Source of the DNA: Yersinia intermedia
GTDB taxonomy: Bacteria > Pseudomonadota > Gammaproteobacteria > Enterobacterales > Enterobacteriaceae
Assembly (NCBI RefSeq): GCF_900635455.1
Contig: NZ_LR134116.1
Span: 806,001 to 870,000 of the forward strand
Reading direction: 5' to 3'
DNA: 64,000 nucleotides
Each line of letters starts with the position of its first letter. Position 1 is the first letter of the stretch. Positions 7,111 to 35,071 of this stretch are shown here, in pieces. The position numbers and the translations under genes are program-made. The notes under the pieces were generated by a model. The model was not told where the DNA came from. It was given only the letters and a program-made list of their open reading frames with translations, and made no database searches.

Positions 7111-7127
7111 TCATCATGGCGGGGTAT

Positions 7128-7159: not shown

Positions 7160-7170
7160 TGATATGAATT

Positions 7171-7219: not shown

Positions 7220-7279
7220 TGCGTAATTGTAATACCAACAGTAATTTCGTCACTTGGATAACTAATCCAGGTAACGTGT

Positions 7280-8783: not shown

Positions 8784-8821
8784 CATTTGTAGGGATTGTT
8801 ATTGTTAGCTATATCAATACA

Positions 8822-9040: not shown

Positions 9041-9239
9041 TATATTTCCTTATAAAAATATTAATCAATTACAATTATATTTTTTGCATTTATAATGATG
9101 CTAGTGAGTTTTTCATGAATAACTTATATTCTCTTATAAAGATAATTCTTTCCGCTCGAAATGTCGACAATGAATATATTGAATTGTATCGTGATACTCG
9201 AAGTAATTAGCTCTTAGCATACAAGGACTTTAATTTACG

Positions 9240-9815
9240 ATGTTTGGAATCATCGATATACAAGAACAGGGAAGTAATGCAATTGAAACAACAAATAGTG
9301 TTTTTAGTCAAGCTGGATTGCCTTTAATCATTTCGCGAATGACTCATCAGGACTTGATATGTTGCATTAATCGTTCCCGAAATAGCATTAATCCTCTTGA
9401 ATGGCGAAACATTCAAACTGATCTTAATAGAAGTGATGGATATAATTTTTGTTTTAAACTTGCTGTTGAAGATGAGGAGCTCAATCCTGTACCTGAGCGA
9501 CCGGAGGGGGGATGTGCATGTTGGTATAATGAGTTATCCCAAAAAGTCACCATAGAAATGATCCAGAGTTTTGATGACTATGATGGCCCCCTTGACGGCA
9601 AAATGATGATTTATTCCTTGGTAACATTGATCTTTTTCCTACAAGAGGTTGGTGGTGTTGGCGTATATATTGATCAGCCTGTGAATGATCGAGTATGTGA
9701 TTACTATATGAATGTTTTAAAATTTGAAGATGTATCAGGGACTCGAACTTTACTATACCGTTCTATTGAGGAGCTAGTGGCCTGGTATCAGGATCTCGAT
9801 CTTGCAATGTTCTGA
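9240..9815 (+). CDS. Hypothetical protein, 191 aa
   Basis: An acidic, soluble protein of 191 residues with an AAGGA site nine bases before the ATG. The second half (IEMIQSFDDYDGPLDGKMM, then IYSLVTLIFFLQEVGGVGVY and PVNDRVCDYYMNVLKFEDV) has the rhythm of a GNAT-like fold: a long helix, then a strand, then a DYYxxxLxF motif. I see no convincing acetyl-CoA loop, so the function remains open. The region is AT-rich compared with the ICE backbone. It may be cargo of the element; neighbours give no clue. Confidence 0.6.
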   Translation: MFGIIDIQEQGSNAIETTNSVFSQAGLPLIISRMTHQDLICCINRSRNSINPLEWRNIQTDLNRSDGYNFCFKLAVEDEELNPVPERPEGGCACWYNELSQKVTIEMIQSFDDYDGPLDGKMMIYSLVTLIFFLQEVGGVGVYIDQPVNDRVCDYYMNVLKFEDVSGTRTLLYRSIEELVAWYQDLDLAMF

Positions 9816-9898
9816 CCTGAGTGTGAATGAAGCACCATTGATATCGTATGTAAAATAAGCAATAATCAAAGCAGGCATCATTGATGCGGAGGATAAAA

Positions 9899-10099
9899 AT
9901 GAAATCAAGATCACAGCACAATGAAACGGTTCACCCGGAGAGGAACGTTTCGGTGACAGCGAAAGAGACAGATAAGCCCCTTTCCATGTCGAAAGAGCAA
10001 CTGATTCAAGTCATGGTTGCTGCTGTACCGCGAGTGCGCAAAATGCCGAAGGCCCCTAAGGGCGAAGCTGCAGGCAAAAAAGCGATCATCTACGGATAA
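9899..10099 (+). CDS. Small basic hypothetical protein
   Basis: A 66-residue protein with a strong GGAGG site six bases before the ATG at 9899; an in-frame ATG at 9881 has no such site. It is rich in Lys, Arg and Pro, with the middle segment MSKEQLIQVMVAAVPRVRKM forming a likely amphipathic helix. I recognise no family. Its good ribosome site and codon use like the ICE backbone suggest a real gene. Confidence 0.55.
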   Translation: MKSRSQHNETVHPERNVSVTAKETDKPLSMSKEQLIQVMVAAVPRVRKMPKAPKGEAAGKKAIIYG

Positions 10100-10239
10100 A
10101 AAGGCGACTCTTATGGTTGCTTCAGGTAATTTCCGCCCATTGGTGATTCTTCTGTAATAATCGAAAACTGTAAATATATCTTGTTTACGACGGGATATAT
10201 TTACGAACTTCTTTTGAGGATTTCTGGTCGATTAAGTTC

Positions 10240-10380
10240 AGCACGTTATCCATCAAATCCATCATGAGGTGGAGCCAGTGAGTTAGCCCCCATCAAAGGG
10301 GCAGACGAGCGGGAGCGATTCCAGGACGGAACAAGTCCTGGAACACCGATTGTGGAGTTGTGGATAACATTTAGTGATAG
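10240..10380. other. Hairpin-rich intergenic region
   Basis: Between 10100 and 10383 there is no convincing gene. A perfect 9-bp stem (10319-10327 with 10335-10343, loop of seven) and a short CCCC/GGGG hairpin near 10290 suggest a structured transcript or binding region left over from the ICE backbone. No T-run follows, so it is not a standard terminator. Confidence 0.35.
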
Positions 10381-10383
10381 CAG

Positions 10384-11049
10384 CTATTTATTATCTTTCT
10401 TTAAACTTAATGCTAACTCGGTGAGTGTTATCATACGCTCGTAGCGAGCTAATGTATGATGCAATGTTATAGATACAAGCATCAATCCAATATAGCTATA
10501 AGCGATGATAGAGGGCCATTGACTTTGGCTATCTATTTTAAATGTCATACCTAGTATGGCCAGTATCCCTGGAAATATCCCCAGTTTCTCAATAGGGCCA
10601 ACTATGATTTGCATTCTTTTTTCAAGAAAACTTTTCTCATGTTTTATCTCCATTAGTCCAAATTCTAACTCTCTAATACTCAATTCTAATAATTTGGGAA
10701 GTTTCTGGTAATCAACAATACTCTGTTTTTTTACGTTTGTATTTATTGCATGATTGAACGGAAGAGCAAACGATTTATATGTGCCATTTCTGTTTTTATA
10801 TAAATCAATGAAAGGTATTAGAAATATGGTGAAATATGATAAAACTAATAATAATATAGATACTGATAGTATAAATTCGCTTTTAATTAATTTTGAGATA
10901 AAAAGAGTAAGCAATGCTAAGGTTATAGATATGGCTATTATTAATAAAGAGTTTCGTTGTAATCTATCAGATAATTTTTTTTGCTTTCTATTTTTCTTTT
11001 TTTCCAAAATCTCTATTGATTTTATAATGTTCATATATCTTAATGCCAT
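10384..11049 (-). CDS. Predicted four-helix membrane protein, unknown
   Basis: A 221-residue protein on the minus strand, start at 11049 with AAGGA eight bases upstream. Two hydrophobic helices lie near residues 33-52 and 59-80, followed by a soluble, charged stretch (about 85-150, with ELSIRELEFGLMEIKHEKSFLEKRM, partly coiled-coil-like), then two more hydrophobic helices near 155-172 and 180-200. The N-terminus is strongly basic. It is AT-rich and unlike its neighbours, which suggests acquired cargo. No family is recognised. Confidence 0.6.
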   Translation of the reverse strand: MALRYMNIIKSIEILEKKKNRKQKKLSDRLQRNSLLIIAISITLALLTLFISKLIKSEFILSVSILLLVLSYFTIFLIPFIDLYKNRNGTYKSFALPFNHAINTNVKKQSIVDYQKLPKLLELSIRELEFGLMEIKHEKSFLEKRMQIIVGPIEKLGIFPGILAILGMTFKIDSQSQWPSIIAYSYIGLMLVSITLHHTLARYERMITLTELALSLKKDNK

Positions 11050-11140
11050 GTCATAGTCCTTTTTATTTGGTGAAGGCTATCAGAATACATTTCCATTACC
11101 TTCCAGTGCTTGCCGAATATAACAATGGTGATTATCATAT

Positions 11141-11315
11141 TCAACGTTGGACCGTTGTCATCGACAACACCCTATGCATTCATGCTCTGTAAGGATGCGC
11201 CGAAAGGTGAGCAAGCCCGAGTTGCCCAGACCTGAAATGCAACACTTTAGAGCGGTAACCCCCCTGAACCTTTGAGAGCGGGGATCGCAGGATCACTGCG
11301 GTGAAGGTATCCTTA
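11141..11315 (+). repeat. ICE leader repeat, copy A
   Basis: About 175 bases closely similar to 23563-23735. Shared landmarks are a short hairpin GTTGTC/GACAAC, the phrase GACCTGAAATGCAACACTTT, and GGTAACCCCCCTGAACCTTTG followed by GCGGGGATCGCAG. It shows no long ORF. Such repeated leaders precede accessory gene blocks in SPI-7-type elements, by analogy; whether it is a promoter region or an RNA is not known. Confidence 0.5.
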
Positions 11316-11379
11316 TCCCTCAATAAATAGCTTCTACTGATTAGTAGAGCAACTATATCAATGGGCCTATGCCCAACAA

Positions 11380-11910
11380 TCTCGGCAACATTTGCGGCTC
11401 TCTGCTATGCCAATTGGAACATTTGGCATCTGCCAGAGCAGCATTTGGTGCGAGATATGAGCAGCGCGTCACTTGTGTGATTGCGAAGCATATACCAAGT
11501 GACGCGCGCAGCGCATAACGGACAAACCCGCTTAATTCGGGCATCAACGACGTCTGCTACGCTCTGACTGACATGTAGTGCCTTGGCCGAACCTTGGGCT
11601 ACGGAACATTCAGAACAGTAAGTAGGCATTTTTAAACAACTGCGTCATAAATGCGGGATAACCCGAGAAAGACGCCTATTTAATAGAGAAAGGAGAAAAT
11701 CGACTCGGTAACGATGGCAGCGTCAGTGAAAGCTGACGGATGGAGGTGACCTGGCAATTGTCAGGAACCGGTGCAAACCGCAAGCAGCTCAGCGAGCTGT
11801 GGATACCTCATAAGAACTTAACATTTTGCCACCCCGATGTGCAGTTATCAGTCGAGCCGCAGGAAGCGTAAATCAAACCGTGACATCGGGGCCGAGGTGT
11901 ACACCCTGTA
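11380..11910 (+). ncRNA. Candidate structured RNA region upstream of recombinase copy 1
   Basis: There is no convincing gene here, but several strong inverted repeats: a perfect 12-bp pair at 11464-11475 and 11496-11507; ATGCCAA with TTGGCAT at about 11407-11429; CAGCTC/GAGCTG at about 11787-11801; and a perfect 9-bp closing stem at 11832-11840 with 11883-11891 around a roughly 42-base interior. The region ends about 50 bases before the recombinase start. It could be a folded leader RNA or the recombinase target site. Minus-strand ORFs in it lack ribosome sites. Confidence 0.4.
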
Positions 11911-11943
11911 CTGAACATTTTTATGGATGAAAAGGGGAGGGGG

Positions 11944-12855
11944 ATGTCGAGAGCTAATAAGCAGTTAAGTAAACAATTAATCACATTGGCACGCAAATCG
12001 GGGGGGAGTTTTAAAACTGTTGCTGATCGCGCCAGAATAGCATCTCGATTAGCAGTAACTATGTTGAAGTTGAATATTCAGATCCGCGATGTGAATAATA
12101 TAAAAACAAGCCATATAGAAATATATATAAAGAATCGCCAGTTAAACAATATATCAAAACGAACAATGCAAAATGAAATGGCCGCGATTAGGGCGATATT
12201 TAACACTGCGGGGAGAACTAAACTCGCCGATCCGGATCATGAACGATTAAGTAATTCAGCCCTTGGGCTGTCAGGTGCTAGCCGTGAGGGTGCAAAAGTC
12301 GCTATTTCGAACGAACGCTATCACGCAGTACTCCTACATATACATTATAAAGACGAAGGGGTTGCCGCCGCAATGCAATTAGCTCGACATTTAGGGCTAA
12401 GAACAGAAGAAACGGTTCAATCAGCCAAATCACTAAAAACCTGGCAGCGGGCATTACAGCGAGGTGATGAACGCATACGGGTTGTATTTGGAACGAAAGG
12501 TGGACGCCCGAGGGACACCACGGTTGTGGATCGCGATACAGTTATTCGTGTAGTTAATGAAGCGATTAAATATGCTGATAGAAATAATGGGCGTTTAATA
12601 GATAAGCCTAATTTGCACTCTGCGATTGATCGGTATCGAAATATTCTCAAAGGGGCAGGGTTAACGGGAAAGGAATCCCCACATAGTTTGCGCTATGCCT
12701 ATTCCAGAGACGCTACGGAATATCATATGAATAAAGGATTGAGCCGCAAAGAAGCTGAAGCAATGGTCTCAATGGATTTAGGGCATGGGGATGGACGCGG
12801 GCATTATGTTGCCAGGGTTTATAATAGAGTGGGTGATGATAAAGTTGAGTCTTGA
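11944..12855 (+). CDS. Tyrosine recombinase (integrase-domain protein), copy 1
   Basis: Site-specific recombinase of the integrase-domain family carried within SPI-7-like elements. I place the start at the ATG at 11944 after GGGAGGGGG, giving 303 residues. The N-terminal half (SKQLITLARKSGGSFKTVADR) is a SAM-like core-binding domain. The catalytic half has GLRTEETV (first Arg), PHSLRYAYS (His-x-x-Arg), LGHGDG (His) and VARVYNR (Tyr nucleophile). From 12166 to 12788 it is base-for-base identical to the second copy at 22810-23432. The C-terminus (VGDDKVES) differs from that copy. It is followed by insertion-sequence debris. Confidence 0.85.
   Translation: MSRANKQLSKQLITLARKSGGSFKTVADRARIASRLAVTMLKLNIQIRDVNNIKTSHIEIYIKNRQLNNISKRTMQNEMAAIRAIFNTAGRTKLADPDHERLSNSALGLSGASREGAKVAISNERYHAVLLHIHYKDEGVAAAMQLARHLGLRTEETVQSAKSLKTWQRALQRGDERIRVVFGTKGGRPRDTTVVDRDTVIRVVNEAIKYADRNNGRLIDKPNLHSAIDRYRNILKGAGLTGKESPHSLRYAYSRDATEYHMNKGLSRKEAEAMVSMDLGHGDGRGHYVARVYNRVGDDKVES
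12166..12830 (+). repeat. Recombinase direct repeat, left copy
   Basis: Bases 12166-12788 are identical to 22810-23432; two mismatches (12789 and 12819) occur before the match ends at 12830. The offset is a constant 10644 bases with no gaps. Upstream of 12166 the two genes are still homologous but clearly diverged, so the edge of identity is sharp. This is a large direct repeat flanking the radical SAM operon. Confidence 0.95.
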
Positions 12856-13310: not shown

Positions 13311-13652
13311 GTCATTGTGTCCCATGACATACATTACGAATGTCAATCCAACTGTGGGCTCTGGAGATAACCTCACAAAGAGTACCAAACAAAATATCAA
13401 ACGAAGGATAATCGATTTTCGCATTCTGTTGGTTGTCCTGGATGAGACAGAAATACTGCTTGATGGTTCTATATCCATGGCTATGCCCTCAAAAAGCGAG
13501 CATAAGATCACCGACGGATCCGCAGGTCAATTGCGCCCTAGTTTTGGGTGTAAAAACGTCCATGATCTTGCTTTGAGTTTGCTTCAGATCATATACCACT
13601 ATCATTTACTGTGTTTACATACAGCGTTATGTTTCTCTTAGGTATTAGTTAT

Positions 13653-14111
13653 ATGGATAACCATCAACTTGCACAGTTCATTGTCGCCGCAAAAAAAGCC
13701 ACCTATGCATCACAAGATGATAATTTTTCTCTGCGCCCTCTATTGCCGGGATCAAAGTATTTGGCTTTTGGACGACCACCATTCTTCTATTGTGACACAT
13801 ACTTTGGGATGAATGACTTTGCCGGACAAGAAGTTGTTTACTATCAAAATGTCCCTGTTTGGTCTATGTATTATAGAGGGGGGGTGATTTCTGCTGAAAA
13901 TATGTCTAGTATCTATGCTTTTTTGAGAAAAGCGCTGATGACAGTACCTTTATCTGCTCCTTTTCGAGGAACAACCTCTCTATGTGAAGGGGAACTTCAG
14001 TATGTTAATAATTACGTTGGGGAAATTCGAAACTTTAGTGGTGAGGAATACATATATCAGAGTACAGATTTGGTCTACCGTCTGACCTATATAGGTGGCC
14101 TGCTTTCCTGA
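13653..14111 (+). CDS. DUF5680-like protein
   Basis: A 152-residue soluble protein; I start it at the ATG at 13653 because the family begins close to the phrase FIVAAKKATYAS. Conserved-looking features are LLPGSKYLAF, YCDTYFGMNDFAGQEVVYY and PVWSMYYRGG, a pattern of small stand-alone proteins annotated as DUF5680. The function of that family is unknown to me. It is isolated between two insertion-sequence remnants, with no operon partner, and AT-rich like other cargo. No clear ribosome site is seen. Confidence 0.6.
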   Translation: MDNHQLAQFIVAAKKATYASQDDNFSLRPLLPGSKYLAFGRPPFFYCDTYFGMNDFAGQEVVYYQNVPVWSMYYRGGVISAENMSSIYAFLRKALMTVPLSAPFRGTTSLCEGELQYVNNYVGEIRNFSGEEYIYQSTDLVYRLTYIGGLLS

Positions 14112-14253
14112 AATTATTTTATACAGGAATTGCATCATCCCTCGTACTATTTTTGATGAAAATATATGTTCATCCCCTTAAGAATCCTAAGGGAATTTAT
14201 ATAGAGGGATTGATGATCTTATTTTTTAAATAACTAATTCAATAAAACACTCT

Positions 14254-14790
14254 TATGCTTGCTCGTTCATTACTCCAAGATTTCTTTGAAAGTATACTGC
14301 ACTTCTGCACTGTTATCGGCAGAAGGCACTTACCTATACCACTAGTGCGGTTATCTGCGGAACTCTGCTGACTCTTTCATATATTGGCCGCTATTTACCG
14401 GGATGGGCCAGCGTAAAACATAAAATCAAGTGTGTTGATCGCCTTTTGGGTAATCTTCATTTGCATAATTGAGTTACCTTTCTTTTTTTAAAGAACCATA
14501 CGACATATAGCCTGTAATATGCTGTGTGATTCTAAATGCCATTACAGTTGACGATTTGGTTTTTTTTTAACTAGACTGGAATCGTGCACTCGCAACTTTC
14601 GCCTGTGTTCAACCTTGAGGTTCGTAGCTGGTAACCCTTATAGCTTAAGGCTAAGTGGGACACTATTGAGCTGCATTATCCCATCGTACAGCTAGGTAAT
14701 GCTGCTATTCACGAATTTTTTCTTTACTTGCTTTCCAAATTTTTAAATCTCGAAACAGAAATACTCATTATTGCTAATGTTGGTTTTGGC
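14254..14790 (+). pseudogene. IS4/IS10-type transposase remnant
   Basis: Plus-strand frames give MLARSLLQDFF, then after a frameshift LHCYRQKALTYTTSAVI, YIGRYLPGWASVKHKIKCVD and RLLGNLHLHN, which matches the N-terminal part of IS10-like DDE transposases. Near 14735-14790 a further fragment, LNLETEILIIANVGFGM, matches the region before the second catalytic Asp, which here is Asn. Many stops and frameshifts separate the pieces. The element is dead and incomplete. Confidence 0.6.
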
Positions 14791-14864
14791 ATGTAAGTCA
14801 CCTAAGATGGAGAGCTTACTCACTTACTACTGTATCAACTATTGCTGTGTAAGAGCAGTCCAGT

Positions 14865-15087
14865 TTATCGGTAATACGTTTCAGTTCCTTCCAGAGTTGG
14901 CGGATCTTTGATTAGATTTTAGTGATTGATAAATAGGGCCGGATTTTTTACCCAAGTCTAGAGACTGTGTGGTTGTATCAAGACGGGTTGCGACGCTTAC
15001 AATGGAATGACGATGATCAGCAACCGGCCTAACCGCTTCAGTTTTTAATTCTTCGGGATAACCTTTACCGCTCATTGGTACCCTCAT
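14865..15087 (-). pseudogene. IS3-family orfA remnant
   Basis: The minus-strand ORF from 15087 reads MSGKGYPEELKTEAVRPVAD and VATRLDTTTQSLDLGKKSGP, the helix-turn-helix N-terminus of IS3-family OrfA proteins. After the break near 14890 a KELKRITDKL-like stretch in another frame matches the following leucine-zipper region. The rest of orfA and all of orfB are missing. It lies just upstream of the promoter region of the radical SAM operon. Confidence 0.65.
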
Positions 15088-15306
15088 TTAAGCTATCTAA
15101 AATGACTCTGAGGAGTCTACCAAACCCGTTGCAACTTATGAATAATTAAAATATTTTATCCTTTGTAAGGCCTGCCAGATTTAGGTATTTTACCTATATT
15201 CAGCTTAACTCTAATTTTACAAGATTTAATTCTTAATTTTTATGTTATGTCGGTTAAATATTCTCTTGTTGTTTTGTGTCAATGTTTACTGTTTCTTAAG
15301 TATATG

Positions 15307-15347
15307 TTGATCCAAATCAATAATAAGTATTGCTTAAGTGATCTAAA
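15307..15347 (+). promoter_or_regulatory. FNR box with class II promoter
   Basis: TTGATCCAAATCAA at 15307-15320 matches the FNR consensus (TTGAT, four bases, ATCAA) at all ten defined positions. A -10-like TCTAAA sits at 15342-15347, about 28.5 bases from the box centre; 29.5 is ideal for an FNR site centred at -41.5. This predicts a start near 15354 and a leader of about 90 bases. Oxygen-responsive activation fits an operon of Fe-S and radical SAM enzymes. It is a prediction from pattern only. Confidence 0.65.
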
Positions 15348-15445
15348 AATATCCATGACACTACTGTCAGATGATAGGCAGCAAAAACACATTGTAAATT
15401 AATCAGTATTTAAAATGACAAAATATTATGACAAGGATTGTGTAC

Positions 15446-16561
15446 ATGGATATCAAAAAAAGAAAAGTAGATGTTATCTTCAATACTACTTTGGTTTGCC
15501 CGTGGGATTGTGAAATTTGTTGTGTGGATGCGGTTCATGTAGGTAAGGTTGGGAATGATATATTTATAAAACACAATAACTTGGAAGTTATTGAAACTTT
15601 TCCAGATGATATGTCTGACATGAGTATTTATGAGCAGGCAGCGATGAGAAGAGTAGAACGTGGTGAGGAGTTGTCTCTGGAGGATAAAAAGAAAATCATA
15701 GATAATTTATCAGGATATGATGCAAAGATTGATATTTCTGGAGGCGATGCACTAGTTTTAAAAGATAACTTTGATTTACTTGGTTATGCATCTGAGAAAT
15801 TGGGGAAAAATAATGTTACTTTGACTGCTACTGGGTTAGGTACATCTAAGGTGGATATAAAACAAGTTGCAGAACTCATATCTGAATATAATTTCACATT
15901 TGATGCCGCATCATTAAAGGATATTGCAAATAGACCAAATGGTTATTCAATGGGTAATCTAAAACGAGCAGGAAGATTCGTAGAATTAGGATGCAAAACA
16001 CGTGCTGAATTACCCTTAACGACAGATATTATATCCAGAGAACACCTCGAGCGTCTTTATTTAAAACTTAATGAATATAATATTGACAAATTGCTTATCA
16101 TGCGACTTTTCCCTGTTGGTAGGGGAACGACAAAAATTGATAAAATTCCAAGTCGTGAAGAGTACTTATTAGCAATAGATATTTTGAAAGAAATGGAGAA
16201 TAAATATCACACTCCAGTTGTTAAACTACAATGTGCGCTTAGAAATATTGTGCCATCTGATGTGGATAAAAATCCATGTGATATGTTGAGTGAGTCATTT
16301 GGTATAACTCCTGATGGAAAATTGCTAGCTTCGCCGTGGGCGTATAGTTGTGGTGGTAAGGTTCTTCACGATTGTTGGGAATTAGGTGATATTGTTCAAA
16401 ATAGGCTGGAAGTATTACTTTCTGGTGATAAAGCACAACGATATTATCGCCGATTAGAAGAAAATAAAGGACATTGCAAATTATTTAGTTTCATCAATTC
16501 AAATAAAATAAATCCTGAAGATAGATTATTTGATTCTGCTGATAAACTCCATTGCAATTAA
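15446..16561 (+). CDS. Radical SAM enzyme, first gene of the cargo operon
   Basis: A 371-residue radical SAM protein. The CX3CX2C cluster motif is at the N-terminus in CPWDCEIC, followed by another Cys; the Gly-rich SAM contact DISGGDAL is near residue 95, and LTATGLGTSK follows in the barrel. The C-terminal part carries more cysteines (NPCDMLSESFGITPDGKLL and YSCGGKVLHDC), like a reduced SPASM/twitch region that may hold an auxiliary cluster and whose GITPDGKL phrase is typical. I chose the ATG at 15446, with AAGGA eight bases upstream; the ATG at 15428 has no such site. Substrate unknown. No precursor peptide gene is evident nearby. Strongly AT-rich. Confidence 0.85.
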   Translation: MDIKKRKVDVIFNTTLVCPWDCEICCVDAVHVGKVGNDIFIKHNNLEVIETFPDDMSDMSIYEQAAMRRVERGEELSLEDKKKIIDNLSGYDAKIDISGGDALVLKDNFDLLGYASEKLGKNNVTLTATGLGTSKVDIKQVAELISEYNFTFDAASLKDIANRPNGYSMGNLKRAGRFVELGCKTRAELPLTTDIISREHLERLYLKLNEYNIDKLLIMRLFPVGRGTTKIDKIPSREEYLLAIDILKEMENKYHTPVVKLQCALRNIVPSDVDKNPCDMLSESFGITPDGKLLASPWAYSCGGKVLHDCWELGDIVQNRLEVLLSGDKAQRYYRRLEENKGHCKLFSFINSNKINPEDRLFDSADKLHCN

Positions 16562-16575
16562 TCAGGATGAATAAT

Positions 16576-17760
16576 ATGAGTCAGAGGCTATTTGTTGATT
16601 TTATGGGCAAAAAACTGTGCAGCCCTATAATTGTTGGTGCGGGGCCAAGCACTAAAAGTTGTAGTGATATTATAGAAGCTGCGAAGTTTGGTGCAGGCGC
16701 TGCCATTATTAAATCCATAGGATGGCATGCAGATGTAGAAAAGACATTAAAAGATAGGAAAAGATATAGATGGATAAAAGGGTATGGTACTTATCTAAAA
16801 TCTACTTATTTATGTGAAATTTTGTCAAAACCTTATGGATGTAATCTAATTAAGGAGGTGAAGAGTTCATCAGATATTCCAATATACGCCTCTGTCTTTT
16901 ATCCCGCACTTTCAAATGAACATGATATAGATAGATGGATTGACCTAGTAAGTGAGGTTTCAAATGCTGGATGTGATGGCGTTCAATTAGATTTTTTTTA
17001 TCTAGATTTAAGAAAACTTAATGATGACGAGGTGTGTTTTTTTGTTGATGCGATAAATAGGATTTGTAGATCCACTCATTTACCTGTCATGCCTAAACTT
17101 AACATCGCGATGGATGATGACTTAATCGAAAATTTGTTGAAAAATAGTTTGTCAGATGCTTATGTATTTATTGACTCTATAAATACAGAGCCATATATAG
17201 ACATTTGGAACAAAGGAGCACCTCTTTTTGATGGACAACTATATAACTCTCAAACTAATAGGTCTGGCAGTGTGGTAGCTGGTGAAGCATTATTACCTTT
17301 TACATTTAATATGACACAGCGATTGTATAGATCGACAGATAAAAACCTATCTGCCGGAGGAGGGCTCGAGCATTGGGAAGATATTATCCGCTGTATAATG
17401 CTTGGTGCTTCAACAGTTCACCTTACATCTATATTAATGCGACGTGGGTTTAAATATATTCGAGATTTGAATTCATCAATTAATAATTATTTAGATAAAC
17501 AACACGTTGAAAAAATAAGCGATATTAGAGGGGTTAGTTATTCGACAAACGCTGGTAATACAATAATACAACAAAAGCCGATTCTCGATATGAGAGCGAT
17601 AATAGATTCATCAAAATGCAATGACTGCGGTGTATGTGAAAGATTTAAAGTTTGTGATTCTTTTTCTGTTAAACCATATGACTTCATAAATAATTGTGAT
17701 GGTTGCACTTACTGTCTTGCTCTTTGCCCACGCAATGCAATTAGCCTGATTGGAGTCTAA
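16576..17760 (+). CDS. Dihydroorotate dehydrogenase-like/ferredoxin fusion (PreA-like)
   Basis: A 394-residue flavoprotein-type enzyme. Residues 1-310 form a dihydroorotate-dehydrogenase-like TIM barrel (CSPIIVGAGPSTKSCSD, GAAIIKSIGW, GCDGVQLDFFYLD, then GGGLEHWEDIIRCIMLGAS, a phosphate-binding FMN loop). The C-terminus carries two cysteine clusters, CNDCGVCERFKVC and CDGCTYCLALCP, as in bacterial-type ferredoxin domains. This layout matches PreA, the pyrimidine-reducing subunit of dihydropyrimidine dehydrogenase, but no PreT partner is present. I infer a reductase or dehydrogenase step acting on the pathway intermediate. The start at 16576 has AGGA upstream. It lies 14 bases after the radical SAM gene. 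Confidence 0.8.
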   Translation: MSQRLFVDFMGKKLCSPIIVGAGPSTKSCSDIIEAAKFGAGAAIIKSIGWHADVEKTLKDRKRYRWIKGYGTYLKSTYLCEILSKPYGCNLIKEVKSSSDIPIYASVFYPALSNEHDIDRWIDLVSEVSNAGCDGVQLDFFYLDLRKLNDDEVCFFVDAINRICRSTHLPVMPKLNIAMDDDLIENLLKNSLSDAYVFIDSINTEPYIDIWNKGAPLFDGQLYNSQTNRSGSVVAGEALLPFTFNMTQRLYRSTDKNLSAGGGLEHWEDIIRCIMLGASTVHLTSILMRRGFKYIRDLNSSINNYLDKQHVEKISDIRGVSYSTNAGNTIIQQKPILDMRAIIDSSKCNDCGVCERFKVCDSFSVKPYDFINNCDGCTYCLALCPRNAISLIGV

Positions 17761-17761
17761 A

Positions 17762-18787
17762 ATGAATGAACTCAATAAAAGTAAAAAGCTAAATTTTGCA
17801 TATTCAATCTTTACATTGATATTTTTTTCCGTGCAACTCCGAATTGTCATTGATACATTTTATTTTGAAAAAAACTCTTTTATAGTTTTGTTCTATTGCC
17901 TTTTATTTCTAAAGCTTGGAGAGTTAGTTAATGAGTTAATTGTGATTAATGCAACAAAGTTATTTGCTGTTTTGGGTACAATCTCACTATTTATGATTAT
18001 ATATATGAATGGTTTTTTTGTCTTTGTTGGATGTTTTATTTTTGGGTTTTGTCTAATGAAAGTTAGAGATAAAACTATACAACATAGTACTAAAAAAATA
18101 AAATTCACAGCAAGAGCTATTGGCTTTGTTTTATCACCAATATTGCCGTATATATTATTGGTTATACTTTGTATCATGGCAATGATCGCGATAGTTACTA
18201 CTAGATTTGATGAGGATATAAGCGATAATTTTTCGTTGCAGTGGTATGATGGTAGCGTTGGAATTGTTGGTAATTTATGTATGGGAATACATCATTTCCA
18301 TTATTTCTCATACGCATATTCTATACCACTTGCATTCTTTATTTTTACATCGATAAACTCAGCATGGCTAGGACTGATTTTCTATATCGGTTGGGCAGCA
18401 TATAATGCATATGAGCGAATAATAAAACCTAGCTGGAATTATCTTTTTATTGGACATATAGTTGCAGCTGTTTCACTTATAATGCTTGCGAATAATCATA
18501 CTATAGCATCTATGACTTTCTGGTGGTTTATGACAGGGTTGGGAGGTGGAACAGTATATATGATCCAGTCTCTATCAAACGTCAAGTGTAATAGCTCAAC
18601 TGAACTAAAAATATCTGAAGGATTTGGTCATGTTTTCGGTATATTAGCATGGGGGGGCTCGATTAATTACCTTGGAGTGGATGCATCATTTATATTTGGA
18701 GCCATAGGTGGTATTTTAGTGGCAATTATTTCTTTATGTAAGATTTTTATTGCTCGCCAAACTTTTATAAGGAGATTTACTAAATGA
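17762..18787 (+). CDS. Multi-pass membrane transporter, MFS-like
   Basis: A 341-residue hydrophobic protein with about ten membrane helices, for example FAYSIFTLIFFSVQ, LFAVLGTISLFMIIYMNG, ILPYILLVILCIMAMIAIV and LFIGHIVAAVSLIMLA. The overall pattern (a basic loop KVRDKTIQHSTKKIKF between the two halves, Gly-rich helices near the end with GLGGGTVYM) suggests a divergent major-facilitator carrier shorter than the usual 400 residues. I infer export or uptake of the pathway product or precursor. It begins two bases after the preceding stop and its own stop overlaps the ATP-grasp start (ATGA), showing tight coupling. Confidence 0.7.
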   Translation: MNELNKSKKLNFAYSIFTLIFFSVQLRIVIDTFYFEKNSFIVLFYCLLFLKLGELVNELIVINATKLFAVLGTISLFMIIYMNGFFVFVGCFIFGFCLMKVRDKTIQHSTKKIKFTARAIGFVLSPILPYILLVILCIMAMIAIVTTRFDEDISDNFSLQWYDGSVGIVGNLCMGIHHFHYFSYAYSIPLAFFIFTSINSAWLGLIFYIGWAAYNAYERIIKPSWNYLFIGHIVAAVSLIMLANNHTIASMTFWWFMTGLGGGTVYMIQSLSNVKCNSSTELKISEGFGHVFGILAWGGSINYLGVDASFIFGAIGGILVAIISLCKIFIARQTFIRRFTK

Positions 18788-20157
18788 AAAAAATTTGTTA
18801 TGTCGTTGGAATTGCAGGTGCTTCTTTAGACTATTCATTACCACGAATAATAAAAAAAGGAAGAGTTTATGCCTTAGTGGCTGCTCCTATTTCACAAGAA
18901 AAAATAGATGTTTTGACTGAGTTTTGTGTTGATGTAAATATAATCCCTAACCTTACGAGTGAGCTTTTTGATGAGGCATCACTTGAACTGGAAATTATAG
19001 AATATGCTAATAAAATTAATGCGGATGCAATAGTAACCCTTGATGAGTTTAGTGTGGTCGCTGTATCAATGGCTGCGGAAAAATTAAATTTAAGAGGGGC
19101 TGGAGTAAATGTAAAACGCTCGCGTAATAAATTTTTAATGAGGGAGTCATTCTCCGAGGCTGGTGTTCCTAATCCTAAATATTTGAAACTAACAGCAGCT
19201 ACTGATACATCTAATTTACTTAAAACATTGAATACACCTTTCATAATTAAAGTAACCGAAGGTGCAGGTTCCTATTGCCACACGCTTATAAATAGAAAAT
19301 CAGACTTTGAAATTGAATTCCAGTTATTGCTAGATAAAGTTTCAACGGTTGGTTATGACAAAAGCCTTGGGGTTGTTGACTCATTCCGTAAACCAGAGTT
19401 TATAGCTGAAGAGATTATCGATGCTACTACAGATAGTTGGTATGAAGAACCCGGTTACGGTAATTATGTAAGTGTCGAAGGGTTTGTAATTAATGGTGTT
19501 TATTATCCGGTTTCGATTACTAGTCGGTTGCCTACCATACCTCCTTTCACAGAGACTGGATTACAGACACCTTGCGAATTATCACCATTTAAAAGAAAAC
19601 TTATTGAAAATATGGCAAGAAAGGCAGTAGATGCAATGAAGTTGAGTTGTTGCGGCACGCATACAGAAATAAAATTACTCAAAGACAACAAGATGTGTTT
19701 AATTGAAACGGCCGCTAGATTACCCGGAGCTTCGATAACAATGATGGTTGAAGACGCCTTTGGTGTTGATTTAATAGGCTCTCTTGTTGAGTTACTTTTA
19801 TATGGTAAGTCAGATTCTATTCCCTCTACTATGATAGATAGTAATTATATACAATCTACAGGTTCCGTTGCTTTAGTACCTACTGATGCTTCAGGACGTC
19901 CGTGGAAAACCAAACCTAAACTTAATAAAAATATTGATATAAGCAAGATAATTCCAAAGGGAGTCAAGTATGAAGTTATTTGGAATAAAGGATTATTTGA
20001 TGGGCAAGAAGTGCAATCTTATGATTTAAAGAAAGGGTATTTTAATTTTCTTGGAGGAGTATATCTTAAAGCTGAGAAAACTCATGATATTATGCTTGCT
20101 CAACTTTCAATTTTAAATAATCTAGAAGATCTTCTGAATAATAGTAAGGATAATTAA
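18784..20157 (+). CDS. ATP-grasp ligase
   Basis: A 457-residue carboxylate-amine/thiol ligase of the ATP-grasp type (carbamoyl-phosphate-synthase-like fold). The N-terminal about 110 residues form a preATP-grasp domain (CYVVGIAGASLDYSLPRIIK, VTLDEFSVVAVSMAAEK). The ATP-binding Lys lies in PFIIKVTEGAGSY (about residue 155), the hinge in FIAEEIID, and the metal-binding acidic residues in GTHTEIKLL and CLIETAARLPG (about residues 285-325). I infer that it joins an amino acid or other carboxylate to an amine during biosynthesis, as in peptide-like natural products. It overlaps the preceding gene by four bases. Confidence 0.8.
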   Translation: MKKICYVVGIAGASLDYSLPRIIKKGRVYALVAAPISQEKIDVLTEFCVDVNIIPNLTSELFDEASLELEIIEYANKINADAIVTLDEFSVVAVSMAAEKLNLRGAGVNVKRSRNKFLMRESFSEAGVPNPKYLKLTAATDTSNLLKTLNTPFIIKVTEGAGSYCHTLINRKSDFEIEFQLLLDKVSTVGYDKSLGVVDSFRKPEFIAEEIIDATTDSWYEEPGYGNYVSVEGFVINGVYYPVSITSRLPTIPPFTETGLQTPCELSPFKRKLIENMARKAVDAMKLSCCGTHTEIKLLKDNKMCLIETAARLPGASITMMVEDAFGVDLIGSLVELLLYGKSDSIPSTMIDSNYIQSTGSVALVPTDASGRPWKTKPKLNKNIDISKIIPKGVKYEVIWNKGLFDGQEVQSYDLKKGYFNFLGGVYLKAEKTHDIMLAQLSILNNLEDLLNNSKDN

Positions 20158-20158
20158 A

Positions 20159-21490
20159 TTGGGAAATTTGAAAGCTTTATTAAAACAGACTTGGCCGGTG
20201 CTATTAAGTCAGTTAGCCGTCACTCTTTATGGAGTGATAGATACTATTTTTGCAAGTCAACTATCACCTGACTCACTTGTGATAGTAAGCGTTAGTTCTA
20301 ACATATATTCAACGGTGTATATTACTTTTTCAAGTGTTTTATATATATTAATGCCATACGTATCACAATTATTTGGGGCAAATAAAAAAAATGAAATGGT
20401 GGGTGTTTTAGGGCAAGGTTTTTGGCTGTCTATTTTTTTATGCATCCCTATACTTTTTTTTCTTATTTTCCCAGAACCATTTCTATATATAACTTCCCTT
20501 CCTAATGATTATGTATATATAGTGAAAAGATATTTGATAATAGTATTATTCAGTGTTCCAGCATTGATGATGTTTAGAGTTTACTTTGCCTATTGCGCAG
20601 GGATTTTGAAACCTGCGAATGTTATGTATCTGAATATTATAGGTCTTATTCTTAAAATTATAACTTCTTATGTGCTTATTCATGGTTTTATTGGATTCCC
20701 AGCGTTAGGGGTTTATGGTTGTGCTATTTCAACTGTGATTGTTAGTTGGATTGTTCTTGCATTGGCGTTTGTTATTATGAAAAGAGATAAAATTAATGGA
20801 GGAGAGCTTTTTTTTGTTTTGTTTTCTCGGCCAAATTTTAAATTTCAAGCCGAGCTTTTTAAAAAAGGCTTTCCTATTGGACTTACTTTTTTTATCGATT
20901 TCACCTCATTAACATTTATTGGTCTTTTAGTTGCTAGAATGGGAGTAATAGTGACTGGGAGTTATCAGATTGCGTCTAATATATCGTTGTTGTGTTATCT
21001 TGTTCCACTTTCTATAGGGAGTGCAGCTAGCGTTTTATTAGCTAAGTCTATAGGAGAAAAAAATGTGCAAGATTCTAGAAGTGTTAGAAGGACTGCGCTA
21101 TTTATGACATCAGGCATTAGTTTAGGCATTTGTTTCACACTTGTTTTTATTCCTGAATATCTAGCATCATTGTATACTGATAATTCAGAGTTGGTAAAAA
21201 CGGCATCTATTTTCATTCGGCTGGTTGCTGGCTATCATTTTTTTGATTCATTATTAACTGTAACAAGTGGTTTGCTCAGAGGGTACAAAAAAACGTCCGT
21301 TCCTACAGTAATTTATGGATTGAGTTTGTGGGTTTTTGGGCTTGGGGGGGGGTATTATTTAGCATTCATTCGTGGCATAGGTGCTGAAGGCTTCTGGTAT
21401 GGGTTAAGTTTTGCAGCATTTGTCGCTGCGGTATCTATGGGTATATACTTATCACATGTTGCAAAAAATGAACTAGCGCAATCATTGTAG
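20159..21490 (+). CDS. MATE-family exporter
   Basis: A 443-residue, 12-helix transporter of the multidrug and toxin extrusion family. The N-terminus LLKQTWPVLLSQLAVTLYGVIDT with SSNIYSTVYITFS, and the repeat of the same pattern in the second half (FFIDFTSLTFIGLL, GSYQIASNISLLCY), are typical of the two pseudosymmetric halves. I accept the TTG at 20159, one base after the ATP-grasp stop; an AAGGAT site lies just upstream. With the preceding carrier this gives the operon two membrane transporters, which suggests that the product leaves the cell or is toxic inside. Confidence 0.85.
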   Translation: MGNLKALLKQTWPVLLSQLAVTLYGVIDTIFASQLSPDSLVIVSVSSNIYSTVYITFSSVLYILMPYVSQLFGANKKNEMVGVLGQGFWLSIFLCIPILFFLIFPEPFLYITSLPNDYVYIVKRYLIIVLFSVPALMMFRVYFAYCAGILKPANVMYLNIIGLILKIITSYVLIHGFIGFPALGVYGCAISTVIVSWIVLALAFVIMKRDKINGGELFFVLFSRPNFKFQAELFKKGFPIGLTFFIDFTSLTFIGLLVARMGVIVTGSYQIASNISLLCYLVPLSIGSAASVLLAKSIGEKNVQDSRSVRRTALFMTSGISLGICFTLVFIPEYLASLYTDNSELVKTASIFIRLVAGYHFFDSLLTVTSGLLRGYKKTSVPTVIYGLSLWVFGLGGGYYLAFIRGIGAEGFWYGLSFAAFVAAVSMGIYLSHVAKNELAQSL

Positions 21491-21514
21491 CAATGTAGGT
21501 TCTAAGGATAATTT

Positions 21515-22360
21515 ATGAAAATAACTGAAATCGTAGCAAAAAGTATTATTACAAAATCAAAGCTACCTGACACGGATTATGTTGTTAATCCTTATACAGG
21601 CTGTGCATTTGCTTGCATGTACTGTTATGCTTGCTTTATGGGACGGTTTATTGGGGAGGAAAATACCCCCTGGGGTGAATATGTATATGTTAAAAAAAAT
21701 GCAGTGGATTTGTTTAATAAGGATCTTCAAAAACTTTTAAGAAATAAAACTCGAGGAAGTATTTTTTTGAGTTCTGTTACTGATCCCTATCAAAATTGTG
21801 AGCACAAGTATCGTTTAACTAGAGGGATATTGCAAGCTATTGCAGCGGCTAATTATGATGGAGTAATAAGTATCCTTACTAAGTCCCCTCTAATTTTAAG
21901 GGATATTGATGTTATTAAAAAAATAAAAAATATTGAAGTTGGCTTAACTATTACATCGCTTAATGACAAATTAAGTAGACATCTTGAAGTCAATGCTCCA
22001 TCTACAGTTCGTAGACTTAGGACTCTTAGTGAATTACACGAAAATGGAATAAATACATATTGTTTCATTGGTCCTTTGCTACCACATTTTAAAAATAGTC
22101 CAGAAGAGTTGGAAAATCTCATTTCTAGCATTGCTGATACTGGGGTCAAATCTGTTTATGTTGAGCATATTAATTTAAAAAAATATATTTCAGACAGTTT
22201 ATTATCTTTCACAAATAGTGATAGTGAAATTCGTAGCCTCTATAAAAATGCTAAGTCAGAGCAACATCGTGCTGAACTAGGGGTAATGGTATCCAATCTT
22301 CTAAGTAAGTACGGGTTGACGTTGAAAATGAATCAAGTTATCGATCATATGAAGACATAG
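21515..22360 (+). CDS. Radical SAM enzyme of the SPL (spore photoproduct lyase-like) group
   Basis: A 281-residue radical SAM protein. The cluster motif CAFACMYCYA (CX3CX2C followed by Tyr) starts near residue 30, preceded by YVVNPYTGC, a pattern of COG1533/SPL-related enzymes rather than of peptide-modifying SPASM enzymes. FLSSVTDPYQNCEHKYRLTR, near residue 88, is the hallmark second motif of this group, and SILTKSPLILRDID follows. Substrates of most such proteins are unknown. It lies 24 bases after the MATE gene and is the last gene before the long inverted repeat at 22372-22450. Confidence 0.85.
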   Translation: MKITEIVAKSIITKSKLPDTDYVVNPYTGCAFACMYCYACFMGRFIGEENTPWGEYVYVKKNAVDLFNKDLQKLLRNKTRGSIFLSSVTDPYQNCEHKYRLTRGILQAIAAANYDGVISILTKSPLILRDIDVIKKIKNIEVGLTITSLNDKLSRHLEVNAPSTVRRLRTLSELHENGINTYCFIGPLLPHFKNSPEELENLISSIADTGVKSVYVEHINLKKYISDSLLSFTNSDSEIRSLYKNAKSEQHRAELGVMVSNLLSKYGLTLKMNQVIDHMKT

Positions 22361-22620: not shown

Positions 22621-23484
22621 TTGATCACACTGGCGCGAAAGTCAGGGGGAAGTTTTAAAACTGTTGCTGATCGCGCCAGAATAGCGTCGCGTTTCGCCGA
22701 AAGTATGTTGAAATTAAACATCCAAATCCGTGATGTCAGTAATATAAAAATCAATCATGTTGAGCTGTATATAAAAAGCCGTCAGTCTGTGAATATTTCC
22801 AAGCGCACTATGCAAAATGAAATGGCCGCGATTAGGGCGATATTTAACACTGCGGGGAGAACTAAACTCGCCGATCCGGATCATGAACGATTAAGTAATT
22901 CAGCCCTTGGGCTGTCAGGTGCTAGCCGTGAGGGTGCAAAAGTCGCTATTTCGAACGAACGCTATCACGCAGTACTCCTACATATACATTATAAAGACGA
23001 AGGGGTTGCCGCCGCAATGCAATTAGCTCGACATTTAGGGCTAAGAACAGAAGAAACGGTTCAATCAGCCAAATCACTAAAAACCTGGCAGCGGGCATTA
23101 CAGCGAGGTGATGAACGCATACGGGTTGTATTTGGAACGAAAGGTGGACGCCCGAGGGACACCACGGTTGTGGATCGCGATACAGTTATTCGTGTAGTTA
23201 ATGAAGCGATTAAATATGCTGATAGAAATAATGGGCGTTTAATAGATAAGCCTAATTTGCACTCTGCGATTGATCGGTATCGAAATATTCTCAAAGGGGC
23301 AGGGTTAACGGGAAAGGAATCCCCACATAGTTTGCGCTATGCCTATTCCAGAGACGCTACGGAATATCATATGAATAAAGGATTGAGCCGCAAAGAAGCT
23401 GAAGCAATGGTCTCAATGGATTTAGGGCATGGAGATGGACGCGGGCATTATGTTGCCAGGGTGTATAATAGAGTAAGTGAATAG
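22621..23484 (+). CDS. Tyrosine recombinase, copy 2, with damaged 5' end
   Basis: Second copy of the integrase-domain recombinase, 287 residues from the TTG at 22621. Homology to copy 1 extends eight codons further upstream (LNNKSSKQ), to an in-frame TGA at 22594-22596, and no ATG or good ribosome site is present there, so the native start seems lost. The catalytic residues (GLRTEE, PHSLRYAYS, LGHGDG, VARVYNR) are intact. The first about 65 codons are diverged from copy 1 and the rest is identical until the last few codons. It is not preceded by the structured region found before copy 1. Activity is uncertain. Confidence 0.75.
   Translation: MITLARKSGGSFKTVADRARIASRFAESMLKLNIQIRDVSNIKINHVELYIKSRQSVNISKRTMQNEMAAIRAIFNTAGRTKLADPDHERLSNSALGLSGASREGAKVAISNERYHAVLLHIHYKDEGVAAAMQLARHLGLRTEETVQSAKSLKTWQRALQRGDERIRVVFGTKGGRPRDTTVVDRDTVIRVVNEAIKYADRNNGRLIDKPNLHSAIDRYRNILKGAGLTGKESPHSLRYAYSRDATEYHMNKGLSRKEAEAMVSMDLGHGDGRGHYVARVYNRVSE
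22810..23474 (+). repeat. Recombinase direct repeat, right copy
   Basis: Right-hand partner of 12166-12830, in the same orientation, identical over 623 bases and then with two mismatches. Homologous recombination between the copies would remove 10,644 bases that carry the whole radical SAM operon and leave a single hybrid recombinase gene. Confidence 0.95.
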
Positions 23485-23562: not shown

Positions 23563-23735
23563 GTTCAATCGTTGTCTTCGACAACACCCGATGCTGCCAT
23601 GACCTGTAAGGTAGCACTGTACAGTGGTCAAACCCCAGTTGCCTGGACCTGAAATGCAACACTTTTAGAGTGGTAACCCCCCTGAACCTTTGAAAGCGGG
23701 GATCGCAGTTCACTGCGATAAAGGTACACTTTTCT
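23563..23735 (+). repeat. ICE leader repeat, copy B
   Basis: Partner of 11141-11315 with the same landmarks in the same order: GTTGTC-TTC-GACAAC hairpin, CCTGAAATGCAACACTTT, GGTAACCCCCCTGAACCTTTG and GCGGGGATCGCAG. It differs by scattered substitutions and small gaps. It lies upstream of the small ICE genes at 23840-26665 and may carry their promoter. Nothing codes convincingly on either strand between 23485 and 23839. Confidence 0.5.
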
Positions 23736-26734: not shown

Positions 26735-26920
26735 ATGCAGGTATGCTGGAAAGTGTACGGATTGTCTGAGGACGTGACTGACAGGGAGACTTTTTATAAT
26801 GCAGCGCTAATGGCGGCTAAAAATATTGATGGGTTTAGGGGGAACCTAGATTTTTGTATAAAGAATGGGCACGATAAACGTGCCCAAACGGTTGAAAGGT
26901 ATATACCACTATTTATCTGA
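26735..26920 (+). CDS. Short hypothetical ORF, possibly a gene remnant
   Basis: A 61-residue ORF (ETFYNAALMAAKNIDGFRGN, DFCIKNGHDKRAQTVERYI) whose end overlaps the convergent KAP NTPase gene by 12 bases. It has no clear ribosome site before its ATG, and its amino-acid composition looks protein-like only in the second half. It may be the tail of a truncated gene at the junction where the NTPase gene was inserted. Low confidence. Confidence 0.3.
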   Translation: MQVCWKVYGLSEDVTDRETFYNAALMAAKNIDGFRGNLDFCIKNGHDKRAQTVERYIPLFI

Positions 26921-29900
26921 ATCAAACATAGAACGTCGTTTTATTATTTTATAATAAGAAGGGGTTTCCTCATCCTCTTCGAAATCAGAGAAAAAGTGCT
27001 TATCTCTTAATGCTGTTAATAAATTTTGATTAGTTGCATTAATCTCAATTTTTGGCTTGCCTCGCCACAATATTTTACTAAACTCCAGTAAACCAATCAT
27101 ATCAAGATACTCTTTGCAGACTGCCTTACTCAAATTCTTACTCGGCAACAAGGCGATTAATAACGCTATTTTATCCTGCTTATCCAGACCCTCTGCGGTA
27201 AACAAATCTTTTAGTAACGGTTCAGAAACATCATCGGGGCTTGCTATCAATGCTGATATGTTCTGTATTGCTCGGCTCAGAATAATTGACTGAGTGGAGA
27301 CTTCCCAGGTTTTATAAGATAACGTCAATTTTAAGAGTTCTTTTGATTCAAAATTATTTTCTAAAATATAATCATTAACGGCAGGAGGGTACTCCTTACC
27401 ATCAATAGCAAGCGGCGTTTTAACAAACCCGAACAACTTAATTTTTATATCATCATCAACCTTCCAAGAAAGTATCGATATAGCTTCATTTAAAATAAAA
27501 CTCTCTTCTGTCATCATGTTAACGTAGGTTTCGATATTCTTTTTGATATAATAAAAAGCTTGTTCAGGATAATTATCACGTATAAAACTAAGTGACTCTA
27601 AATCCATGCAAATAATATTTTTATCTATTAATATCTTGAATTTATCGCTTGCAATATCGCTAATTCTAAAGGCGGAGTTATAATGAAGATTTAGAGAACA
27701 GACTAATTTATCATATTTATAATTTGATAAATTATTACAAATAATAATTGATCTAAACAGTTTTCTTTTTTGCTCGTCTGTAATGTCGATAATTGAAAAA
27801 TTAAGCTCTACATCAGTTCTATTGATAAATCCGATAAGTGAATTATCTAACCCATCAACACTTGTAAAGTAAGATACTATATTCTCCTCAGAACAAATCG
27901 CTATATCTTTATCCAACAGCGATAACCATAAGGATTCGTTCTCAACCTTATTTAGAGAGGCTACTGGTGTTTTCAATGAGTTTATATATCTGTCTTTTTG
28001 TTCATCCGATATTTCCTCATTATTAAGGACAGATAACACAATAGTTTCATCATCTATAATTGAGCCATTACAGCCAGATAACACTGTATCGATATAATCA
28101 CCAATATGGTTATTAACATAGTTCGCCAGAGGTGAATCAGGCTGTGACATCACTAACGTATAGTTTTTATGGCGAATATCGTCTTTATTGCTAAGCTGAT
28201 AAACCTCACTCAGCATTAGGGACAGGTTGGCAACGTTAATGTTATAAAGCGAATGCTGATAAACCGCATCAAAGAGTACTTTATTTGCGCTTTCAAAATT
28301 AATACTGGCAAAAGAGACATTAAGCAGCTTAAAACCACTAATTAACTTGTCAACATTAGGCTCTGTTATTGCCAAATAATCTGTCGAATCAGAGAGGTAA
28401 TTGGTCAAACAATCATCAATGTTAATTGCCTCAATGGCGTTATTATCAGAATAATAAAATGTGCCTACTGAGTAACGTTTAACCCAATCAGCAGAAAACT
28501 CGCTCTCTTTAAAGGCATAAGAAAAAAACTCAGGCCACAGCGTATTTAATCTATTAATAAAGCCAGGCTGAGCCCTCTCCGTTTCAAAGTAGTCACGAAT
28601 AAATTCAAAGCTTCTATCTTCTCTAAACTGTTTAAATAATCTTTTTATTAAATTCACGTGGACTGGTGTTTGAAGCAGGTAAGTTAATAAATCAAAATTA
28701 AGCGCCTCTTCCTGTTCAAAATCCACCTCTCTAAGACGGGCAACAACCAGCTTGGGATTCTTGAGTTGATAAGTGAACTCTTTACCTTTTTGATCAGTAA
28801 TGCTGCGTAAAAACATCTTATCAATCCGACTCAGGCTATTCTCATAAAAATAGGTCATATAGTCGGTGTAGGTTTCATCAATATAGCCATCGCGGATAAG
28901 GTATTTGAGTAAGTCAAAATACTCACTTCTTTTTATTTCATTAAAATCTCGCTCCTCACCGATTTCATTGGTATAGGTGAGTTTAAATACTTTATCAATA
29001 TTTTCTCTTGTTATGATTTCTTTGAGTTTTCTATTTCTAGAGTCAACTAAATTATCTTTTAATTTCAATAATACATCATTTATTTTTTCTGCTTTACCAT
29101 TAATTTTGTTTTCAATATTTTCTTTTCTATATTTCCTTTCATTCTCTATATTGGTTATTTCAGTCTGATAGTAATGACGGTTGTTGTTATATTGAGATAA
29201 CTTCCTATCATATATAGCATCAACCTCATCAATAGAGTTGAGTATTTCATTATTTATTATCTCAATCTCTTTGTTTTTATCGTCAATGTCCATTTCTAGT
29301 TTTTTTATTTCTTGATTAATAATATTTTCCTTTTCACTAAATATGGTAAAAACCATCCCCTGATTGATCTGTAATTCACTGAAATCTCTAGGGAAAATGT
29401 TTTTATAGGTAATGACGGCCAGCATTTTATTACAATCAAGTTCGGTTATATTTAATCTATTGTAGTACATTAGGAATTCATTATAGATATTTTTCAATAT
29501 CCTCATATCATCAATATATAATGAAAGTCCTTGCAAGAATCTTTGATTGAACAATGATAAAATATCACCTTTTTCAAAGATGGAGATAAACTTATCGTAA
29601 GAGTTAGAGCTATCAACCACAGGGATAACAGGGATAATATAATCAAAGAACTTGGTTCTATCTTTAGAAATAAAGATATCGTCGCGAAGCAGGTAAATGA
29701 AACGTAACGTCGGTTTTTTGTGTCCTGCCAGACTACGTTGAATATTAACCAGTCTATTTACTTCATGAAGACGCTCAAAGATATGATTGCTATTAAAACG
29801 GTCCATATCTTCAAAAATAATAGCATCAGCATCAACGTTCTCGAAAAGATATAATACCTCATTTAAATACCTGTCAAAATAAGAATCTTCACTCTCTTCA

Positions 29901-35022: not shown

Positions 35023-35071
35023 TGGTGCCCGGACTCGGAATCGAACCAAGGACACGGGGATTTTCAATCCC
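35023..35071. repeat. attR: 49-bp copy within the intact tRNA-Phe
   Basis: Identical to 7171-7219. It is the 3' part of the intact tRNA gene and marks the right border of the integrated element. Confidence 0.95.

Follow-up and report, generated by a model that had tools for sequence, protein, structure and literature searches.

Within a stretch of 64,000 nucleotides from Yersinia intermedia (contig NZ_LR134116.1, positions 806,001 to 870,000; hereafter the window) we identified an operon of six genes (A–F) encoding two radical S-adenosylmethionine (SAM) enzymes (A and F), a PreA-like protein (B), two membrane carriers (C and E) and an ATP-grasp ligase (D), which we read, with our confidence evenly divided, as mobile genes for the biosynthesis of a small, secreted molecule containing an amide. 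Comparison with other genomes points to an organization in which A and F look like a near-constant core, whereas B, C, D and E vary from one cluster to the next; as F stays with A while all else is exchanged, the two enzymes most likely make the shared core of the products, which the other genes would tailor and export. Both this constant core and a DUF5680 gene upstream of A were missed by the preliminary description of the window.

The listing of open reading frames (ORFs), together with a reading of the junctions, places all six genes on the plus strand (15428-22360; Table 1) with gaps of at most 24 nt, as in the tight operon first proposed. The start codon of B is uncertain (TTG 16552, ATG 16567 or ATG 16576), so that A and B are either separated by 5 nt (ATG 16567) or overlapping (TTG 16552); similarly, B and C are 1 nt apart if C starts at ATG 17762 and overlap if it starts at TTG 17750. 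C and D share a 4-nt ATGA overlap, and the D/E and E/F junctions measure 1 and 24 nt, respectively. The earlier assignment of a PreA-like protein, an ATP-grasp ligase, a MATE transporter and a second carrier holds throughout, the fold of the second carrier being predicted as that of the major facilitator superfamily (MFS).

A and F both carry the CxxxCxxC motif and proved to be unlike one another, as had been claimed. In A, the three motif cysteines (Cys24, Cys28 and Cys31) do not vary across the 28 aligned rows, A among them, and the same is true of Cys269, Cys284 and Cys350; on account of these three extra residues, A likely holds one auxiliary Fe-S cluster (bound by three cysteines) in addition to the radical SAM cluster, as judged from the alignment. 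No Pfam family matched A (the SPASM domain included), and its best NCBIfam match was NirJ1 (34.7 bits, cut-off 650), within a weak likeness to heme-pathway and SPASM models; some homologues carry PF13186 and some are named radical SAM/SPASM, A itself having just the three extra invariant cysteines. F, on the other hand, exceeds the Pfam cut-offs for PF04055 (44.5 bits) and DUF5131 (30.6 bits, cut-off 28.9) and falls below those of NCBIfam for PA0069 (NF033668), radical SAM mobile pair B (TIGR04470; 148.6 bits, cut-off 410), Rv2578c and SPL (TIGR04070; 20.8 bits, cut-off 400). Model matches and alignment show that it shares the CxxxCxxC region and an NPYxGC stretch with the SPL/PA0069/Rv2578c families.

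The gene types of the operon recur together in unrelated genomes, which is more than chance would give. A single scan of genome contigs with the A alignment (based on strict peptide patterns, and hence giving a lower bound) recovered eight further loci, from Burkholderia, Orbaceae, Rhodobacter, Bacteroidetes, Streptomyces, Brooklawnia, another alphaproteobacterium and a woesearchaeote, so that carriers of A span Pseudomonadota, Bacteroidota and Actinomycetota as well as an archaeon. When A–F were sought at these loci by tblastn, F was found near A in seven of the eight (same strand, within about 4.6 kb; the exception being L008). B was present in three (L004, 45%; L005, 48%; L010, 28% identity), C in four (L006, L007, L010 and L011; 25-31% identity) and a MATE gene in four (E-like in L004 and L005, other MATE-type genes in L006 and L011), a transporter gene of either kind (C or MATE) being found in six. 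B was not found by tblastn in the other five clusters (some on short contigs), C and D occurred together in none of the eight loci, and the exact six-gene set was not found there outside the window; absences are not firm in L009 (a contig of 5 kb) and L006 (which begins about 0.1 kb before A). The single pathway proposed earlier therefore stands insofar as these gene types cluster in unrelated genomes, the exact set of six not having been met with elsewhere, and a literature search found no description of the gene set.

The Burkholderia unit (L004) comprises A, B, MATE, F, ATP-grasp, DUF5680 and an AMP-binding/thioesterase protein, and a second genome of the genus holds all seven genes at 96.6-100% protein identity; L005 presents the set A-B-MATE-F-DUF5680-thioesterase, which a second genome of the same family carries at 99-100% identity, its A gene being broken into two frames. 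Related glycosyltransferases are encoded in L006 and L011, a pyridoxal phosphate (PLP) enzyme and a nucleoside-phosphorylase-like protein (PNP_UDP_1 domain) in L007, and an AAA_17 kinase-like gene in L009, while L011 has a weak phosphatase match nearby (below cut-off). The protein search for A yielded 330 homologues. In a tree of 22 rows, A of the window groups with those of Burkholderia (two genomes), Orbaceae and P0026, P0028, P0029 and P0031 in a set of eight (support 96/94), and all four genome loci in this set carry B and MATE. Furthermore, the longest contigs of some homologues coincide in size (A, B and C, 40,282; A and B, 70,709; B and C, 8,073), the first of which suggests that homologues of A, B and C lie together on one metagenome contig of 40,282.

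Several further observations concern these loci. In L028 (G551), a near-identical copy of the L005 cluster, A is split into two frames and its neighbours match at full length; the glycosyltransferase of L011 (12971-13974) is likewise split into two frames, and this cluster may be decaying. Related genes in L006 (4699-5796) and L010 (12095-13120, minus strand), 26% identical over 349 columns, constitute a possible cluster regulator, the L010 gene matching DUF6879 and, weakly, TrmB. In L008 (Streptomyces; 6387-12055), an A-type enzyme and HAD phosphatase domains share one ORF, which overlaps a large caspase/Avs-like gene by 4 nt; since two Streptomyces A homologues from the protein search measure 392-397 aa, the HAD fusion is not general.

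D was found to be closest to BacD in both NCBIfam and PDB, which favours the ATP-driven amide formation predicted earlier: it matches the BacD structures 3wo1, 3wnz and 3vmm (E about 5e-50, residues 69-354 of 457) and also 3vot (E 7e-9), aligning with L-amino acid ligases across the ATP-grasp region, and its score against Pfam ATP-grasp_4 (26.2 bits) lies barely below the cut-off of 27. D carries an alanine aligned to an alanine of 3wo1, the entry of the W332A mutant of BacD. Trp332 is described as a pocket residue (PMC6920838). Of the two carriers claimed earlier, E belongs to the MATE family (PF01554, 161 bits; TIGR00797, 249.5 bits, over the cut-off of 147.4), and C, for which no Pfam family was found, may be assigned an MFS fold by structure prediction: its AlphaFold2 model (mean pLDDT 91.5) retrieved MFS transporters including VMAT2, MdfA and NorA in Foldseek (E from 7e-7; TMq 0.72-0.77 to chains of these three, and 0.49-0.77 across the 50 listed rows). 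C has four histidines and one glutamate that are invariant in 17 of 17 rows (H181, H184 in an H-Y-F stretch, H236, E290 and H294, numbered from 17750).

On these grounds we propose a pathway in which A and F would start from a primary metabolite and make of it an unusual building block resembling an amino acid, and B, an FMN-type barrel, would carry out a redox step on an intermediate or supply electrons to the two radical SAM enzymes. D would then ligate this block with a further amino acid, in the manner of dipeptides of the bacilysin type (the best-grounded of the steps); other clusters encode an AMP-binding/thioesterase protein, a thioesterase or a glycosyltransferase. C and E, judging by fold and family, would export the product or an intermediate. 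The ligase, AMP-binding, thioesterase and PLP genes argue for an amino-acid-like core, and the presence of D suggests a dipeptide-type product in the window. More tentatively, and at somewhat less than even confidence, we consider that A and F may be a widespread pair building one shared scaffold that is decorated by interchangeable ligases, AMP-binding/thioesterase proteins, glycosyltransferases, PLP enzymes and exporters. If this is so, the pair would give a first glimpse of an entirely new class of natural products or signals, and not of a single compound, in both bacteria and archaea. By the searches made here, neither A nor F belongs to a family for which a reaction has been assigned or a relative solved, and across phyla the two recur in the company of genes for amide formation and export; being short, seemingly complete and mobile, the operon offers a practical handle on two new radical reactions, on a relative of PreA whose active site is altered, on the function of DUF5680 and on what is probably a new secreted metabolite.

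A number of observations weigh against a secreted amide. As neither A (searched by sequence profile) nor F (by sequence) returned a solved relative, the chemistry assigned to them is a guess. D scores 190.6 bits against the BacD model NF053745, where the equivalog cut-off is 850, and an ATP-grasp gene was found in just one of the eight loci (L004). The matches to C are weak, as is the resemblance of B in L010, at the identities given above. In L008, A lies behind the caspase/Avs-like gene and has no F within 10 kb, L009 shows no transporter within its 5-kb contig, DUF5680 was not found in five of the eight carrier genomes, and F weakly matches two candidate anti-phage models (PDC-M30B and PDC-M41B, 30 bits).

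The alternative that fares best takes the swapping of genes at face value: as A and F alone are near-constant, and the presence of B, C, D, MATE and DUF5680 varies, the two enzymes might work inside the cell (in the modification of a cofactor, an RNA or a protein) amid interchangeable cargo, with no single secreted product, and the PA0069 and Rv2578c families near F have no role in their NCBIfam names. We regard this as unlikely, given the tight operons of the window and Burkholderia, the transporters in six of eight loci and the distribution of A, which seven carrier-centred searches detected in 9 of 978 genomes (1/25, 2/65, 1/343, 1/103, 2/44, 1/394 and 1/4; E <= 1e-20) and in 2 of 971 once the centre genomes are set aside, a very patchy spread that is unlike that of a housekeeping function.

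The match of F to anti-phage candidates, along with a weak match of A to the viperin model (16.9 bits, E 8e-4), raises the question of whether the product of A and F might be a modified nucleoside or nucleotide (of the viperin type, or else a nucleoside antibiotic), processed by kinases, phosphatases and phosphorylases and perhaps serving defence. The AAA_17 gene of L009, the PNP_UDP_1 protein of L007, the HAD domains in the ORF of A in L008, the below-cut-off phosphatase match in L011 and the caspase/Avs-like neighbour of L008 would fit such a product; however, the AAA_17, PNP and HAD genes are each confined to one cluster, and the viperin match is weaker than those of A to heme-pathway and SPASM models, all of them weak. 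The amino-acid ligase, AMP-binding and thioesterase genes favour an amino-acid product instead, and the transporters in six loci likewise speak against a nucleotide, which leaves this explanation rather improbable.

A ribosomally synthesised and post-translationally modified peptide (RiPP), with A as a SPASM-like maturase of an unannotated precursor, could be invoked from the SPASM names of some A homologues and from the mycofactocin maturase among its weak NCBIfam relatives (21.5 bits). We compared 795 small ORFs (20-140 aa) from nine cluster regions and, in line with the earlier remark that no precursor was obvious, found none shared among them in a comparison that could miss a very short or divergent one: apart from two chance-like pairs (17 residues; 28% over 54 residues, E 0.010), every inter-locus match (E <= 0.01) was a shadow of A, B, D or F. 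A RiPP is accordingly held to be very improbable, no search having been aimed at peptidases or leader-binding domains.

B, for its part, has dihydropyrimidine dehydrogenase as its closest structural relative, in comparison with which it retains Lys54 (in all 11 rows that have a letter there), Lys182 and the glycine-rich site, and its two C-terminal [4Fe-4S] motifs are intact (eight cysteines invariant, 12 of 12 rows). The position of the catalytic cysteine of that enzyme (Cys671 in the pig protein) is occupied in B by Tyr150, within an invariant DFFY, and an aspartate replaces the asparagine three residues before it, both in 12 of 12 rows. Its best NCBIfam match is PreA (111.6 bits, below the cut-off of 335), and the DHOD-like model PRK07565 is likewise not reached. 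A pyrimidine-derived metabolite, one of the products considered earlier, would have B act as a dihydropyrimidine dehydrogenase, and it is, despite this structural kinship and the PreA match, disfavoured to the point of being hardly credible by the loss of the catalytic cysteine, the replaced asparagine, the score against PreA and the five clusters, some on short contigs, in which B was not found.

Table 1. Coordinates (window numbering) of the operon, its upstream region and the features of the surrounding island.
Feature	Position	Strand	Description
likely attL, 49 bp	7171-7219		exact copy at 35023-35071
direct repeat (about 166 bp), left copy	11153-11317	+	outside the integrases
left integrase	11923-12855	+	Integrase_1 and Phage_int_SAM_2
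DUF5680 protein, 152 aa	13653-14111 (ATG 13653; ORF open from GTG 13611)	+	PF18931, 110 bits (on 13611-14108)
stretch without long ORF	14112-15427		between the DUF5680 gene and A
A	15428-16561	+	radical SAM enzyme, 377 aa, SPASM-like C-terminus
B	16552-17760 (ORF)	+	DHOD/PreA-like barrel, two C-terminal [4Fe-4S] motifs
C	17762-18787 (ORF from TTG 17750)	+	MFS-fold membrane carrier (predicted)
D	18784-20157	+	ATP-grasp ligase, closest to BacD
E	20159-21490	+	MATE-family efflux transporter
F	21515-22360	+	SPL/PA0069/mobile-pair-B-like radical SAM enzyme, 281 aa
right integrase	22621-23484	+	flanks the cargo
direct repeat, right copy	23570-23734	+	82% identical to the left copy
likely attR, 49 bp	35023-35071		within tRNA-Phe (35023-35098, minus strand)

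The mobility of the cluster is indicated by its surroundings. The operon and the DUF5680 gene sit as cargo between two integrases of 95.5% amino-acid identity (over 287 aa), within an island of 27.9 kb (7171-35071) that is delimited by an exact repeat of 49 bp at tRNA-Phe and carries ParA, ArdC, TraI_2 and a further integrase (at 33859); the direct repeats at a tRNA gene and the integrase are as expected of an integrative and conjugative element (ICE). Among 25 genomes of the genus, A was found in that of the window alone, and C was similarly restricted to it among 369 genomes of the class; the integrase-flanked position and the rarity of A agree with the separate transfer suggested earlier. 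That suggestion had leaned on an AT-rich base use differing from the ICE backbone, and the genes A–F do have a GC content of 0.315-0.349 against 0.447 for the window; nevertheless, AT-richness is not unique to the operon, as the island has further AT-rich parts (27-31 kb, GC 0.29-0.37). The second pair of direct repeats lies outside the integrases in mirrored order, an arrangement that is not fully explained. The island also encodes a 1210-aa YobI-like ATPase (26909-30541, minus strand; PADLOC model Tmn, 222 bits), which may be an anti-phage protein.

The DUF5680 gene is the sole copy in its genome, and the family was found in one of 369 genomes of the class, namely that of the window; as it is so rare in the class and yet lies inside three of the eight clusters (L004, L005 and L009), we argue that it probably belongs to the cluster. 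The stretch between it and A contains a 68-aa minus-strand ORF with no Pfam match, and by eye it bears a possible likeness to insertion-sequence debris.

The nearest named systems are BacD, the radical SAM mobile pair, the PreA/DHOD-like proteins and the SPL-like proteins, for none of which the curated cut-off is reached. B shares the barrel, Lys54, Lys182, the glycine-rich site and the two [4Fe-4S] motifs with PreA/dihydropyrimidine dehydrogenase and PRK07565, from which it is set apart by Tyr150 and by scores under both NCBIfam cut-offs, and F resembles the SPL/PA0069/Rv2578c families in its CxxxCxxC region and NPYxGC stretch while scoring below all their cut-offs. The radical SAM mobile pair A/B (TIGR04470 and partner) is likewise made up of two radical SAM genes carried jointly by mobile DNA, and F is 32% identical to one pair protein B; F falls, however, below the TIGR04470 cut-off, A and F are non-adjacent in the window, and A has no detectable relation to the pair protein A of one plasmid (hhalign probability 2.3; BLASTP E 12). 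With regard to the bacilysin-type pathway, no scored neighbour of D was named as a bac gene, no search having been aimed at the other bac genes; D is nonetheless closest to BacD, and the scheme of an unusual amino acid, ATP-grasp ligation and export would match, with the difference that the unusual amino acid would here come from radical SAM chemistry.

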